The notes under the pieces: generated by a model | The model's input: only the letters and a program-made list of their open reading frames with translations | Told to the model about the DNA's origin: nothing | The model's database searches: none | Source: Candidatus Margulisiibacteriota bacterium | GTDB lineage: Bacteria; Margulisbacteria; Marinamargulisbacteria; UBA817 | Length of the DNA: 46,841 bases | NCBI GenBank assembly: GCA_016779165.1 | Contig: JADHOE010000007.1 | Location: 1 to 46,841, forward strand | Direction: 5' to 3' | Shown here: positions 13,518 to 26,423 of the stretch, in pieces | Numbering within the stretch: the stretch's first letter is position 1 | How the letters are laid out: every line of letters begins with the position of its first letter | Position numbers and translations under genes: made by a program

Positions 13518-14796
13518 CGTACTGAATAATATCCTTATAAGACTCGCGCTTTACTAATATGCGAGGGGCACCATTATGAACAGCAACCATGGCTGGTTTG
13601 CAAAAACGATTGTAATTGGAGGACATGGAATAATTATAGGCACCAGTACCATACACCACCAATAATTGGTTTTTTTCTACCAAGGGCAATTCAACGTGTT
13701 TCGCTAATATGTCCCCAGATTCGCAAAACTTCCCCGCTATTGTGTATGTATCTCGATGGTCTGAAGATGGCGCTACGATATCAAACGTATATTCTGACTG
13801 ATACATCATTGGGCGAGGGTTGTCGGCCATGCCGCCATCAACAAATACATAGGGCTCATGGTTGGCAATTGGTTTAACTGCGCCTACCGTATAAAGCGTT
13901 ACCCCAGCTTGGGCAATGATGGATCTCCCAGGCTCAAAAATCAGTTTTGGGTGAGGCAGTCGGTTTGCATCGCATAATAATTTCAACTCATTGGCCATGG
14001 CTAAAATAATGTCAGATACATCTGGTGCCTGATCATTCTTTGTGTAGCTCACTCCAAATCCTCCCCCGCAATTGACTTCTTTTACAGAAACATTCAGGTC
14101 TTCTTGAATGGTTTTTATAAAATTAACCAGAATGGCCACAAGGTCCATGTAGGGAGTGGTATCAAAAATTTGGGAGCCAATGTGGGCATGAATGCCAATA
14201 AAGTCGCCCCAGTCTGAACAGGATGTCGCCTGAATAAGGGGCAAGGCTTCGTTGAATGGCAACCCGAATTTGGAGTCTATGTGGCCGGTTTTAATGTACT
14301 CATGAGTGTGTGCTTCAATGCCAGGCTTTATCCGAAACATTAGCAATGCTTTTTTGTTTTTTTCTTGCGCAATACGTGAAATATTGTGAAGTTCGTCGGC
14401 ATTGTCTACAACCAAACGAATGCCATGGTCAATGGCCAAGGCCAGTTCTTCCTTTGACTTATTATTTCCATGAAAATAAATTTGATTTCGGTCAACATTG
14501 CTATTTAATACGGTATAAAGCTCACCACCTGAAACAACATCTGCACCAATACCGTTGGATGCCATTAGGTTTGATAGTCCTATATTTAGGCCAGCTTTTG
14601 ATGCATAAGCAATGCAAAAGTTTGGGTAATGCTCACTCAGTAAGTGGGTAAATAATTGGCAGTTTTTTATAATTGTTGCTTCATCAATAATATACAGTGG
14701 GGTGTTGTATGTGGCGGCTAATTCTGTAAGAGAGCATCCGCCAATAATGATATCATTGATGGCTTTTTTAAATGTTATTGGGTGGATATTGGTCAT
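13507..14796 (-). CDS. lysA: Diaminopimelate decarboxylase
   Basis: PLP-dependent enzyme converting meso-diaminopimelate to lysine. It has 429 aa. The PLP-binding Lys67 lies in YASKAG, followed by HIGSQI, the phosphate-binding [15 protein letters not shown], and the active-site CESGDIL and [12 protein letters not shown] motifs. ATG overlaps the panD stop by 4 nt. Presence of DAP decarboxylase agrees with a DAP-containing peptidoglycan, as the nearby murE suggests. Confidence 0.96.
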
Positions 14797-15158: not shown

Positions 15159-15189
15159 ATAATCTTACCTGATTACTTGCCATTGATAA

Positions 15190-16215
15190 TTAATCTTCAT
15201 ACATTGATTGGTCCAAATCAATGAGCGTGATATGGTCCATGGACTCCGTTTTAATTTTTTTGATTTTAGATAACTTTTTAATGAGTTCCGCAATTTTTTG
15301 GCCTTTGTCATGAATGACATTGGAAAAATCCTTAATTTCTTTATTCTGTGATTTTTGGTCAATGGCACGTGCATAATTAATAATGGGTACCAGGTCATTT
15401 CCGATGTTATGGCTAATGGTGGCCACTGTTTTTTTGATTGCATTCATGTCAGATAAAATAAGTTCCTTGTTAAGCTCTTGAATTTTTTTGATTGAGGCTG
15501 TCTCTTTTTCGTGGGCCAATTTAATACGTTTGTTATCCCGCAGTGATTTTTGCAATAATAATTGGTTTTTTCGAGCATAAAAATGCGCGATGGTTTCGTG
15601 GATGAGTAATGCAATGATTGCGATTATAAACCCAGTATAATTTAGTAAGAATTTGAAGATATTTAGTGTTTTTTGATCAATAAAGAATGTTGTATTAAGC
15701 ATTGGCAGTTTACTAAAATACATAATTGAATAGGTTATTATAGGGATGCCGCATGAGATTAGTCTGTATGGCCACTTTTCATTTGAAAAAATAATAAAGG
15801 CCAAAACTAGAATGGACAGCATCATTTGGGTATTAACAAAGACTTGCTGCAATAGAATGTTGAATATTAAAATTGAGCTGCAGGCAGTAAATAAGACCAA
15901 AAAGCTAGCTAAGATGTGCTTTTTGATTGCATTGCATACAAGAGCTGTTGCGTAGAGAAGTGAAACAAGCATGGCCAAGAATGCAATCAAAAGGTAATGC
16001 TGAACGAAAAAGAAAATGGCATAAAATATACCAAGACTAAATCCAAATATAGCAAGGCCATTGGTTAAGGCAATACTTTTTTTTTGTTCAATTGGTGTTG
16101 TGGTTTCAACACCAATGCTAAATAAATACCGACAAAAAAATGCAAATTGGTTAACGATGCGTTTATTTTTTTGTTTAATTGGAACCCCCAAATGGGTGAT
16201 TTTAGGCATCATCAT
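15190..16215 (-). CDS. Membrane sensor with histidine-kinase-like dimerisation helices but no ATPase domain
   Basis: Unrecognised as a whole (341 aa; three consecutive ATGs make the start uncertain by two residues). Residues about 45-215 form six or seven hydrophobic helices. They are followed by a charged helix (about 220-260), then TISHNIGNDLVPIINYARA with His269. This resembles the H-D-x-N-N-x-L phospho-acceptor helix of hybrid kinases. A second helix (about 285-320) would complete a DHp hairpin, and the protein stops at ITLIDLDQSMYED, where a kinase would enter its ATP-binding domain. No N, G1 or G2 boxes follow. The panD promoter begins about 30 nt beyond its stop. It lies 59 nt downstream of the terpene synthase on the same strand. 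It may be a truncated kinase, a phosphotransfer-type protein or a dimerising membrane scaffold. Confidence 0.55.
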   Translation of the reverse strand: MMMPKITHLGVPIKQKNKRIVNQFAFFCRYLFSIGVETTTPIEQKKSIALTNGLAIFGFSLGIFYAIFFFVQHYLLIAFLAMLVSLLYATALVCNAIKKHILASFLVLFTACSSILIFNILLQQVFVNTQMMLSILVLAFIIFSNEKWPYRLISCGIPIITYSIMYFSKLPMLNTTFFIDQKTLNIFKFLLNYTGFIIAIIALLIHETIAHFYARKNQLLLQKSLRDNKRIKLAHEKETASIKKIQELNKELILSDMNAIKKTVATISHNIGNDLVPIINYARAIDQKSQNKEIKDFSNVIHDKGQKIAELIKKLSKIKKIKTESMDHITLIDLDQSMYED

Positions 16216-16274
16216 AACAAATTAATTTATAATTCTAAACATTTGGTGAAATCTTTAGGGTTTTAAGAGTAGGC

Positions 16275-18152
16275 TCAAATACCCGTACCAGTAATTGTCT
16301 TAATAAGTCCATCAAGCCGTCTTAATGCAGAAGCATTAAGTTCCTTTGAGTTTATCTTGGTTTGCTGTTCTTTAAATTTTTTATTTTTATATCGGCCGGT
16401 ATTGTAACACCACTCAACATGCCCACTAACCCAGTTTTGGACGGTTTTTACATGGTTTATTTCATTATTGTTGAGTGAATGGTCATCAAGCAATTTTTCA
16501 GACAGCGCTTCAACTTTTTTAGCTGTAATCTCATGCTGTTCGAGAAAATATTGAATGGCATCTCCAAGCGTAACTTTGTTGTCCTTCATGTAAATTAATA
16601 TACCATTTTGGGGCAACTTCTCTTTAATGTTGTCAGGCAACTCATTGTATTTGGAGTTAAATGTCATTTTGTCAGCGTCATCACCTAAAGAATCAAGGGC
16701 TTCTTTTTCATAAGATACAATCTCGTTAACTAATGCAATGTTTGTGTTAGCTTCTTTTATAAGTTCCTTGTAATTTGATTTAGCATTTAATGCTTCAATA
16801 TCTTTATGGGTGAGGCCTTTTAGGGCCATATCTAATTTAAGCATTTCATCGAATCCAAGAGAGTTTTTACGGTTGTCCATAAACGCACGAAAGGTTAATT
16901 TGTCTATTGATTTGGTTCTAATTTCTGCTTCAGAAACTGTGGATTTATGCTGCGCCTGAACTTGATCTAAAAACCCCTTAAATAAAACATTAAAATCAGT
17001 GTCGTAATGGACTGCGACTTTTTTTAGATCACAATGAAGATCTTGTAATGCATTTACATAGGCTTGTATGTCATGCGGAAGGGAACTAAAGTCTTGCGTT
17101 AATTTGCCATTACTTAACGCTTCATAAAAGGCAGTATTAAAATTTTTGCTTTCATTAGGTGTCGTGTGATCCAATCTATCATCAATCAAAGAGCCCACAA
17201 TCAGCCATTTTAAAATAATTAGGAGGCTAAAATTTTTCGTTACGGTTGGGCCATGAGTGCGATGGACCAACTCTGGTACTTTAGTCTCCAGAATTTTAGC
17301 TGCTTTTCTTTGCTGAATGTAAAGCGATAATGAATTTGGGCAAAAATTGAGAAAAAAGGCCAGGGACTCATCACTGGGTTTTGGAAGGTGAAGCTTTTGG
17401 CATACCTTAATGAGTGCCTGTAGTTTATCTCTTTCATATACTTCTGAAAGTTTGAACTTCTCCATGTATTCATCTAACGCTTTCTCTAAACCCTCTATTT
17501 CTTCTAGTTGTACTTCATTTTTTTTTGGGGGTATGAAAAAATTAAGCGTGCCAGTGCCGGTGCGGGTGCGGGCCATTGGTACCTGGGTGGTTTTTAGGGC
17601 GCAACTCGGACAAAATGGTGAATCTTCAAGCTTGATATAACTAGGACCTTGGTTCCCTTTTATACCAACATCTTCTTCACGTTCAGCTTTTTCAGTATGG
17701 TTTTCTTGTTCATTACTTTTTTTTGGAGCATTACCAAAAATCTGTGCGACTGCAGTTAGTAGTTTTGATATCCCATCACGAAGTCTCTGAAGTGTTGAGG
17801 GGTTCAGCTGGTCGGGACTGAGTGGCTTGGTCTTATTACACGAAGAGCTACTGTTATATTGCTTATCCATTGAGGGGTTCAGTTGGTCGGGACTGAATAA
17901 TAGCATTGTCTTATCAGGTGAATGTCTTGTGTCACGAATAACAAATGTTTGAGGTTTGAATGCTTTAAGTAAATGAGGGGGTGTATCTTTTTTTTGGCAG
18001 GCAAAAAGCCCCGGTTTGTTTGGTTTCGCTCTGGGATCAAGGGCCCACGGACCTGCACCAAATCCGGCACCATTAACTAAATATTGGCGGGGGGTATTAG
18101 TAGTAGGAGGAGTAGAAAATGGCTTGCAAGATATTGGATCAACAAATGGCAT
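16275..18152 (-). CDS. Class I terpene synthase (cyclase) with long N-terminal extension
   Basis: The C-terminal part (about residues 250-600) carries the metal- and diphosphate-binding signatures of class I terpene synthases in order and spacing: the aspartate-rich motif DDRLD at 324-328, a pyrophosphate-sensing Arg at 428 (NRKNSLG), the NSE triad N476-S480-E484 (NEIVSYEKE), and the C-terminal Arg587-Tyr588 (WVSGHVEWCYNTGRYK). Such enzymes ionise a prenyl diphosphate with three Mg2+ and cyclise it. The first 215 residues are Pro/Ser/Thr-rich and look disordered, with two copies of SPDQLNPS and a CPSC motif; I recognise no domain there. At 625 aa it is far longer than typical bacterial cyclases (about 330-420). 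A Shine-Dalgarno (AAGGAAG) supports ATG 18152. Substrate and product cannot be told. Confidence 0.8.
   Translation of the reverse strand: MPFVDPISCKPFSTPPTTNTPRQYLVNGAGFGAGPWALDPRAKPNKPGLFACQKKDTPPHLLKAFKPQTFVIRDTRHSPDKTMLLFSPDQLNPSMDKQYNSSSSCNKTKPLSPDQLNPSTLQRLRDGISKLLTAVAQIFGNAPKKSNEQENHTEKAEREEDVGIKGNQGPSYIKLEDSPFCPSCALKTTQVPMARTRTGTGTLNFFIPPKKNEVQLEEIEGLEKALDEYMEKFKLSEVYERDKLQALIKVCQKLHLPKPSDESLAFFLNFCPNSLSLYIQQRKAAKILETKVPELVHRTHGPTVTKNFSLLIILKWLIVGSLIDDRLDHTTPNESKNFNTAFYEALSNGKLTQDFSSLPHDIQAYVNALQDLHCDLKKVAVHYDTDFNVLFKGFLDQVQAQHKSTVSEAEIRTKSIDKLTFRAFMDNRKNSLGFDEMLKLDMALKGLTHKDIEALNAKSNYKELIKEANTNIALVNEIVSYEKEALDSLGDDADKMTFNSKYNELPDNIKEKLPQNGILIYMKDNKVTLGDAIQYFLEQHEITAKKVEALSEKLLDDHSLNNNEINHVKTVQNWVSGHVEWCYNTGRYKNKKFKEQQTKINSKELNASALRRLDGLIKTITGTGI
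17795..17896 (-). repeat. Pair of 27-nt direct repeats, 75 nt apart, in the terpene synthase N-terminus
   Basis: Copies at 17795-17821 and 17870-17896 differ at one position and keep reading frame (75 nt is 25 codons). Both encode SPDQLNPS. The frame-preserving spacing points to an in-gene duplication in the disordered extension. Two copies with coding function is not a CRISPR. Confidence 0.8.
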
Positions 18153-18214
18153 TGGTCTTCCTTTTTGATAATAAATTAAAATGGGAAATCCAATATAAAT
18201 TAACTCAATCTGAT

Positions 18215-25301: not shown

Positions 25302-26423
25302 ATGATTAAATTGATACTAAGTTTCGTGGTTGTTATGCTTTCATTGCGTGGTTATTCGGAACCATTGATATCACTTTCAGGGTCGGTTTTGTCTGGATCA
25401 AGTTTGTATGATCAATCGACATACAAATCGTTCAATGGTCAGTTTGATACGGCTGCAAATCTGGACGTTGATGTTGAATTTTCAAAAAATGTCTCCGTAA
25501 TGACGGAGTTAAACTTTGGTGGCGCTGAAAATATGACTGGTTTTTCTGATGGAGTGACTTTGGGGGGGATTTTAGTTACCATTATTCCAAGCAATGAAAT
25601 ATCGTTAATTGGTGAGCGCTACACTCATATTTTATTGGGGAACAATACCATTCCATTTGGGCAATTTGCCGAAGACCAAACAAACAATGCAAGTCTTTCA
25701 AGTCAATTCATGTTTAATGACCTAGGCTATGCGTTTTTATCCAATGGGTCAAATGTTAACAGCTTTAGCGCTACTGGGGCAGGGCTATCACTTCAAGTGG
25801 GGCCAAAGGCTCACTTTGCAGAAGATGATATCTCAAATGTGGACATTATGGTTTTTAATGGTGTTAATAATTTGGATAGCAATGAAGATCAAGGGTTTGG
25901 TGTTGCGCTGCGTGTTAAAACCCCAGAGCTTCCATCGCAAACGGTTGTTGGGATGTCTTACTTGGCTGCAAACGAATTAAGAAAGCCTGACACCCATACC
26001 AGGGCCAATATACGAGCCGTGATGATGGATGCGTCGACATCAGTTGCCTCATTTGATTTTGGGGGTTACTTATTGGTTGGCCATTTCAATGATGGTGATA
26101 GTCTCACCAAAGATACGGCCACGATTTTAATGGGGCAAGTATCTCGAAACATTAATCGATTAACATTTGCTGGACGATATTCAATATATCGACCAGAGCA
26201 CTATACAGGCAATGGTGGCGGATCGCGAGCGTTTCCTGAAAATGTTGGCTTTGCAACATTAACCTCAGGTGATGTTGAGATTACGCGTGTGCAATTATCT
26301 GCTATGCTTGAATTGGAAAAAGATGTAAGGTTTCATAATGAAATTTTATTTGATACCTATGGTGAAAACCGTGAGCAATACAACACAGTTGGGTTTTTAT
26401 CGTATGTTTCTGTCGATTTCTAA
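25302..26423 (+). CDS. Outer-membrane beta-barrel porin-like protein
   Basis: A 373-residue protein with a signal peptide (hydrophobic stretch about residues 4-14, likely cleavage after about residue 19, YSEP) and alternating short hydrophobic and polar strands throughout, the mark of a beta-barrel. The last residues, YVSVDF, end in Phe as outer-membrane barrels need for BAM recognition. AGGAG (25291-25295) precedes the ATG by 6 nt. It resembles a general or substrate-selective porin; the family cannot be named with certainty. It is direct evidence for an outer membrane in this organism. Confidence 0.75.
   Translation: MIKLILSFVVVMLSLRGYSEPLISLSGSVLSGSSLYDQSTYKSFNGQFDTAANLDVDVEFSKNVSVMTELNFGGAENMTGFSDGVTLGGILVTIIPSNEISLIGERYTHILLGNNTIPFGQFAEDQTNNASLSSQFMFNDLGYAFLSNGSNVNSFSATGAGLSLQVGPKAHFAEDDISNVDIMVFNGVNNLDSNEDQGFGVALRVKTPELPSQTVVGMSYLAANELRKPDTHTRANIRAVMMDASTSVASFDFGGYLLVGHFNDGDSLTKDTATILMGQVSRNINRLTFAGRYSIYRPEHYTGNGGGSRAFPENVGFATLTSGDVEITRVQLSAMLELEKDVRFHNEILFDTYGENREQYNTVGFLSYVSVDF

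Follow-up and report, generated by a model that had tools for sequence, protein, structure and literature searches.

CqsA and LqsA are PLP-dependent α-hydroxyketone synthases. In the CqsA-CqsS and LqsA-LqsS systems the synthase gene stands with a gene for a multi-TM sensor, in some cases with a response regulator gene nearby, and genes for an autoinducer synthase and its cognate sensor usually sit together as a cassette (PMC3376566). In comQXPA the genes for an isoprenyl transferase, a peptide, a histidine kinase and a regulator lie in a row, so that the gene of an isoprenoid-fold enzyme is found near that of a multi-TM histidine kinase (PMC4008528). The sodorifen synthase operon of Serratia plymuthica puts a bacterial terpene in a communication setting; the partner there is a methyltransferase, no receptor gene has been described as part of the operon, and the microbial perception of volatile or terpenoid signals is an open question (PMC5429845).

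The locus analyzed here lies in a 46,841-nt stretch of DNA (the window) from a Marinamargulisbacteria genome and joins the gene of a putative class I terpene synthase, P0001, to that of a 6-TM sensor. The layout is that of CqsA-CqsS and LqsA-LqsS, but the enzyme is of the terpene synthase type, the receptor domain is MASE7-like and the outputs vary widely; P0001 shows no homology to CqsA or LqsA in its Pfam scan, in which no aminotransferase-fold family was found. Unlike comQXPA, the pair has no peptide gene between its members and its enzyme is of the terpene cyclase type. Bacterial class I terpene synthases (9hqd, pentalenene synthase) have the same domain and the same order and spacing of DDxxD, sensor Arg, NSE and RY, whereas P0001 differs from them in a Pro-rich extension of about 215 aa, in its sensor-gene partner and in having no recognised tailoring enzymes beside it. 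MASE7 (PF20967) is matched by several sensors of the family (6e-5 to 2e-3, some over most of the length), yet all these matches score 18.5-23.3 bits, below the curated cut-off of 26.2, and the window sensor gives no match. No description of a terpene synthase and a sensor kinase as a pair was found in the open-access papers searched, none of which mentions 'MASE7'. As far as these papers show, a cassette that combines a terpene synthase with a putative dedicated 6-TM receptor of interchangeable output has yet to be described, and the pairing is more novel than the enzyme.

The synthase gene and its insertion site

The source genome is a MAG of Marinamargulisbacteria (phylum Margulisbacteria/Margulisiibacteriota; 1.15 Mb, 71% complete) belonging to the same genus as UBP8_UBA817. 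The ValS protein of the window is 73% identical to that of UBP8_UBA817, and a Termititenax MAG of the same phylum is among the next relatives (50%). UBP8_UBA6595, a sister genome, has been classed as Marinamargulisbacteria (PMC6349859), and another member of the class, Ruthmannia eludens, inhabits placozoan cells (PMC6784892). The gene order valS-folC-rdgB-panD-lysA-dacA-panB-cysS is common to the window and UBA817, where (L029) rdgB (13793-14407) and panD (14442-14774) are separated by 34 bp with neither synthase nor sensor between them. Since the same housekeeping run exists in UBA817 without them, the synthase and the sensor constitute a two-gene insertion (Table 1). The partner gene has the lowest GC content (0.33) among the window genes longer than 250 aa and the synthase gene one of the lowest (0.38), most of the others lying at 0.39-0.47. 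UBA817 encodes a different terpene synthase (L111), which has no blastp match to P0001. A phage or plasmid origin of P0001 was dropped as tblastn gave no match in phage and plasmid collections, nor in viral contigs.

The preliminary description placed the gene in a housekeeping neighbourhood; this holds for the flanking genes but not for the adjoining one, a 6-TM protein with HisKA-like helices that had been missed. This adjacent gene and its recurrence at other loci rule out the view of P0001 as an isolated enzyme among housekeeping genes.

In UBA817 the thiE/valS interval carries another insertion (L029:5597-9981), in which three ORFs with no assigned function accompany a transposase-like gene; in the window this spot is empty. 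The window also contains an ORF of 373 aa (25302-26423, + strand) with a signal-peptide-like start and without a Pfam match; a similar ORF adjoins a gene for a zinc-binding ZnuA-like protein in UBA817 (L029:1938-3014).

Table 1. Features of the window locus, outputs of related sensors and members of family B. Locations without a prefix are window positions
Feature	Location	Strand	Basis or remark
Two-gene insertion, rdgB/panD interval	15159..18214	-	3.06 kb; absent at same site in UBA817
Predicted class I terpene synthase gene P0001	16275..18152	-	625 aa, open ORF; Pfam and PDB profile
Shine-Dalgarno-like AAGGAAG	18157..18163	-	4 nt 5′ of synthase ATG
Pro-rich N-terminal extension, residues 1-215 (probably coding)	17508..18152	-	composition, GC3, Shine-Dalgarno motif
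Asp-rich motif DDRLD, residues 324-328	17169..17183	-	aligns with DDQCD of 9hqd
Arg428, candidate diphosphate sensor Arg	16869..16871	-	invariant, 12-sequence alignment
NSE motif NEIVSYEKE, residues 476-484 (N476/S480/E484)	16701..16727	-	family alignment
RY pair, C-terminal, residues 587-588	16389..16394	-	family alignment
Partner gene, 6-TM sensor domain and HisKA-like helices	15190..16215	-	341 aa; 59 bp downstream of synthase, same strand
Hydrophobic 6-TM sensor domain, partner residues about 46-215	15571..16080	-	hydropathy, alignment A3
HisKA-like (DHp) helices	15256..15432	-	candidate phospho-acceptor His in SHNIGNDL
Output HisKA + HATPase	L114, L116, L117, L120, L127
Output SpoIIE phosphatase	L118, L121, L122, L123, L132
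Output HisKA_2/HWE kinase	L128
Output LuxR-type helix-turn-helix	L115
Output phospho-acceptor-like helices only, no ATPase	window, L112, L113		window's own order
Family B member	L149:5607-7274	-
Family B member	L152:3193-4917
Family B member	L142:4551-6434	-
Family B member	L156:3023-4738
Family B member	L138:1272-4220	-
Family B member	L150:3621-5129
Family B member	L160:5582-7240	-
Family B member	L163:3235-4980
Family B member	L154:5594-7486	-

The earlier assignment of P0001 to the class I terpene synthases was borne out by the HMM search: the Terpene_syn_C_2 model (Pfam PF19086) aligns to residues 315-544 at E=3.3e-15, scoring 56.8 bits against a cut-off of 23.7. PF03936 (Terpene_synth_C) scores 24.2 bits, slightly below its own cut-off of 26.3, and NCBIfam gives weak partial matches, all under the cut-offs and mostly named terpene cyclases. 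A family profile of 12 relatives from the class, with P0001 as the first row, matches 118 distinct PDB sequences at E<=0.01; the top match is (+)-T-muurolol synthase 9hqd (7e-51), end to end. In the profile alignment DDxxD, the sensor Arg, NSE and RY are all in register with solved terpene synthases, and in P0001 they stand exactly where they had been placed before. The sole invariant columns of the 12-sequence alignment, D100, R204, E260 and R363, correspond to D324, R428, E484 and R587 of P0001. An AlphaFold2 model of the P0001 core from a single sequence was mostly helical but of low confidence (pLDDT 41, pTM 0.22) and uninformative about the fold. The Pfam, PDB-profile and in-register motif evidence makes the enzyme identity sound, and the assignment of P0001 as a very divergent class I terpene synthase of bacterial type (14-22% identity to its class paralogues) is well supported at the sequence level. 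On this evidence P0001, taken without its partner, adds a divergent new member to a known family. The suggestion that it represents a hidden family liable to be annotated as hypothetical does not suit P0001 itself, which Pfam recognises over the cut-off, but it does suit some synthases of the class that Pfam barely detects or misses.

The long N-terminal extension noted earlier is present and looks coding. Pro makes up 12% of the first ~215 residues and 2% of the remainder. Since a Shine-Dalgarno-like motif precedes the first ATG and the GC3 of the extension (0.32) equals that of the core (0.33), the extension of about 215 aa is probably real. None of the internal starts examined has a convincing Shine-Dalgarno motif ahead, and a wrong-start artefact is, on the same grounds, not favoured. 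The coding sequence of the extension contains a near-identical direct repeat of ~28 bp (about 17795-17823 and 17870-17898), which encodes SPDQLNPS twice.

Synthases and 6-TM sensors across the class

The partner protein matches HisKA with an E-value of 7.3e-5 and 23.2 bits, under the curated cut-off of 26.9. It ends after the HisKA-like helices, with no HATPase_c found by Pfam, and the window genes include no recognised response regulator. By blastp the partner gene is homologous to the sensor genes adjoining other terpene synthases of the class. The 6-TM profile A3, built from synthase neighbours (21 rows, the partner gene itself being one), has a single match in the source genome, namely the gene beside P0001.

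Among 74 genomes from the phylum, Pfam detected terpene synthases in 13, each of them belonging to the class of the window (27 genomes), and the synthase family profile detected them in 13 of these 27 and in 0 of the 47 other genomes; there are up to six per genome, the six in a genome of 1.4 Mb. By these profile searches P0001 belongs to a large and very divergent radiation which, within the phylum, is confined to Marinamargulisbacteria. Prenyl diphosphate synthases are encoded in 27/27 class genomes, with two in the source genome. Profile A3 gave 59 matches in 20 of the 27 class genomes and none in the other 47 of the phylum. In the phylum of an 'Actinomycetota' MAG it matched 0/396, and in that of a 'Deltaproteobacteria' MAG 7/395, all weakly and with no synthase within 1.5 kb.

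ORFs were called in the flanks of the class synthases, and TM numbers are simple hydropathy counts. At nearly all loci the next gene encodes a protein with 5-7 TM segments, and the TM parts of these neighbours are mutually homologous by blastp. In all, 32 synthase-like genes were identified without reference to sensors, the four weakest (L111_4, L116_7, L125_5 and L127_6) being added by hand from Pfam or hhalign matches. A 6-TM sensor gene is the immediate same-strand neighbour of 24 of them, with the synthase first in 22; two more share a short operon with a sensor, one is divergent from it, one lies a gene away, and four, including L111 of UBA817, have no sensor nearby. About 0.1 adjacencies would be expected by chance from 59 sensors among about 40,000 class genes, a gene total estimated from genome sizes. 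The opposite count, from sensors to adjoining synthases, gives no independent figure, since A3 itself derives from synthase neighbours. In most loci the gap between the two genes is -56 to +87 bp. A synthase/6-TM-sensor cassette recurring across the class is well supported.

Distances among synthases and among sensors are correlated (Mantel r=0.37, P=6e-4), and shuffling of partners within genomes gave P=0.07. Pair-specific co-evolution beyond shared ancestry is therefore only suggested, and the within-genome result prevents its use as proof of pairing.

The synthase and the 6-TM domain are constant across the loci, whereas the output domain, assigned by Pfam or, for unscanned proteins, by blastp to scanned ones, varies (Table 1). 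The sensors of the window's own order (15190-16215 on the - strand, L112:7583-8425 and L113:5405-6319 on the - strand) stop after phospho-acceptor-like helices, have no ATPase domain and possess a common tail around [ML][IL]D[IL][ED].S. At L115:1827-2615 (+) the 6-TM domain is joined straight to a LuxR-type helix-turn-helix, as in a membrane-bound one-component regulator. Compound cassettes occur at L123 (synthase-sensor-synthase) and L128 (synthase-sensor-synthase-synthase-sensor-response regulator).

Possible roles of the cassette

We give about even chances to the reading that P0001 and its neighbour are a terpenoid-signal synthase/receptor cassette, one copy of a class-wide set. In this reading the prenyl synthases of the genome itself would provide farnesyl or geranylgeranyl diphosphate, which P0001 would ionise in a Mg2+-dependent manner and turn into a terpenoid; its gene would be co-transcribed with that of the 6-TM membrane receptor. 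The lipophilic product may then be sensed by the adjacent 6-TM domain, and the interchangeable output of the receptor would relay the signal onward; in the source genome, where this output consists of phospho-acceptor helices without an ATPase, it would depend on a kinase of some other protein or work through binding. A signal sensed by the neighbour is favoured because a constant synthase and 6-TM domain with a variable output fits a common ligand, and because such an arrangement agrees with the cassette rule of autoinducer systems.

Adjacency would equally arise if the sensor did no more than adjust terpene synthesis to some other stimulus, and this counts against the signal reading. So do the within-genome shuffle, the four synthase-like genes with no sensor nearby, the missing kinase ATPase of the window's sensor and the absence of a recognised response regulator from the window. 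Regulators commonly adjoin biosynthetic genes under their control, and adjacency by itself fits a synthase with its regulator as well as a synthase with its receptor. The main rival is that the terpenoid has a defensive or membrane function and that the sensor controls the timing of its synthesis via an external cue. We consider it unlikely, though to be taken seriously: neither tailoring enzymes nor transporters were found to recur beside the synthases, SpoIIE phosphatases and acceptor-only proteins are among the outputs, the sole LuxR-type sensor (L115) sits 3 kb away, and at L123 one sensor is flanked by two synthases.

Three other roles are less likely. Export of the synthase as an effector, so that the terpenoid forms in or at a eukaryotic host whose compartment is detected by the sensor, appears improbable. 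This reading draws on an N-terminal K-[IVL]-[IVL]-[SA] motif, carried by 27 of 44 sensor partners and, among other ORFs, by 18 of 425 (P=1e-20). The motif also heads an ankyrin-repeat protein and a U-box/RING-like protein and may therefore serve in the export of eukaryote-like proteins; ankyrin repeats are also fused to one synthase, and the life of a class member inside placozoan cells fits as well (PMC6784892). P0001, however, does not carry the motif, which could equally be a structural strand. The fused protein (L115:5642-10723, - strand) has 1693 aa and combines a divergent terpene synthase domain with the ankyrin repeats. That the enzyme prenylates a small peptide, which the sensor would then read as a pheromone, is very improbable, even though ComQ has an isoprenoid-synthase fold and the comQXPA gene row offers a precedent, since P0001 matches terpene cyclases (NSE, RY) and not the polyprenyl synthase family, and nearly all loci, with the gaps given above, leave no space for a peptide gene (59 bp here). 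Hardly any likelihood attaches to a non-catalytic synthase domain acting as a ligand- or protein-binding partner of the sensor: motif residues are lost in several relatives (DRIID in L112, NNLLSHTKD in L131, SSNFCSDTKE in L123_8), but the catalytic residues are all intact in P0001 and in most relatives, and the invariant columns of the 12-sequence alignment are motif residues only.

Family B and the range of putative terpenoid signals

Directly upstream of many other 6-TM sensors, in the same orientation, lies the gene of a 500-980-aa protein that has no Pfam match (family B, Table 1). An alignment of nine such proteins has invariant D183, D184 and D187 as well as N347, T351 and E355, and the resulting DDxxD and N-x3-T-x3-E, ~160 residues apart, reproduce the layout of a class I metal site. 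Profile-profile comparison of family B with the synthases by hhalign was not significant (E=0.057, probability 1%), and a search of PDB gave no match; family B is for these reasons not accepted as a proven terpene synthase family. It is possible, from the motif layout, that it is a hidden class I terpene synthase-like family.

A broader proposal includes this family and is put forward tentatively, the balance being somewhat against it: Marinamargulisbacteria may possess diversified terpenoid autoinducers, made by fast-diverging synthases, of which each genome has its own set, each with a dedicated 6-TM receptor in an insertable and swappable cassette, and used in quorum sensing or host signalling. 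The signal could be directed at kin, neighbours or a eukaryotic host. A recurrent cassette of terpene synthase and dedicated receptor would supply candidate ligand-receptor pairs that can be tested singly, in a class known almost solely from sequence and with one member intracellular in animals (PMC6784892). The small genomes of this uncultured class, with up to six divergent synthases, would represent unmined terpene chemistry.

The K-[IVL]-[IVL]-[SA] motif, exemplified by MKKIISSP, is found at the N-termini of class synthases and family B proteins (L149, L150, L124, L121) and also in L142:148-2427 and L113:11935-13452 (- strand).
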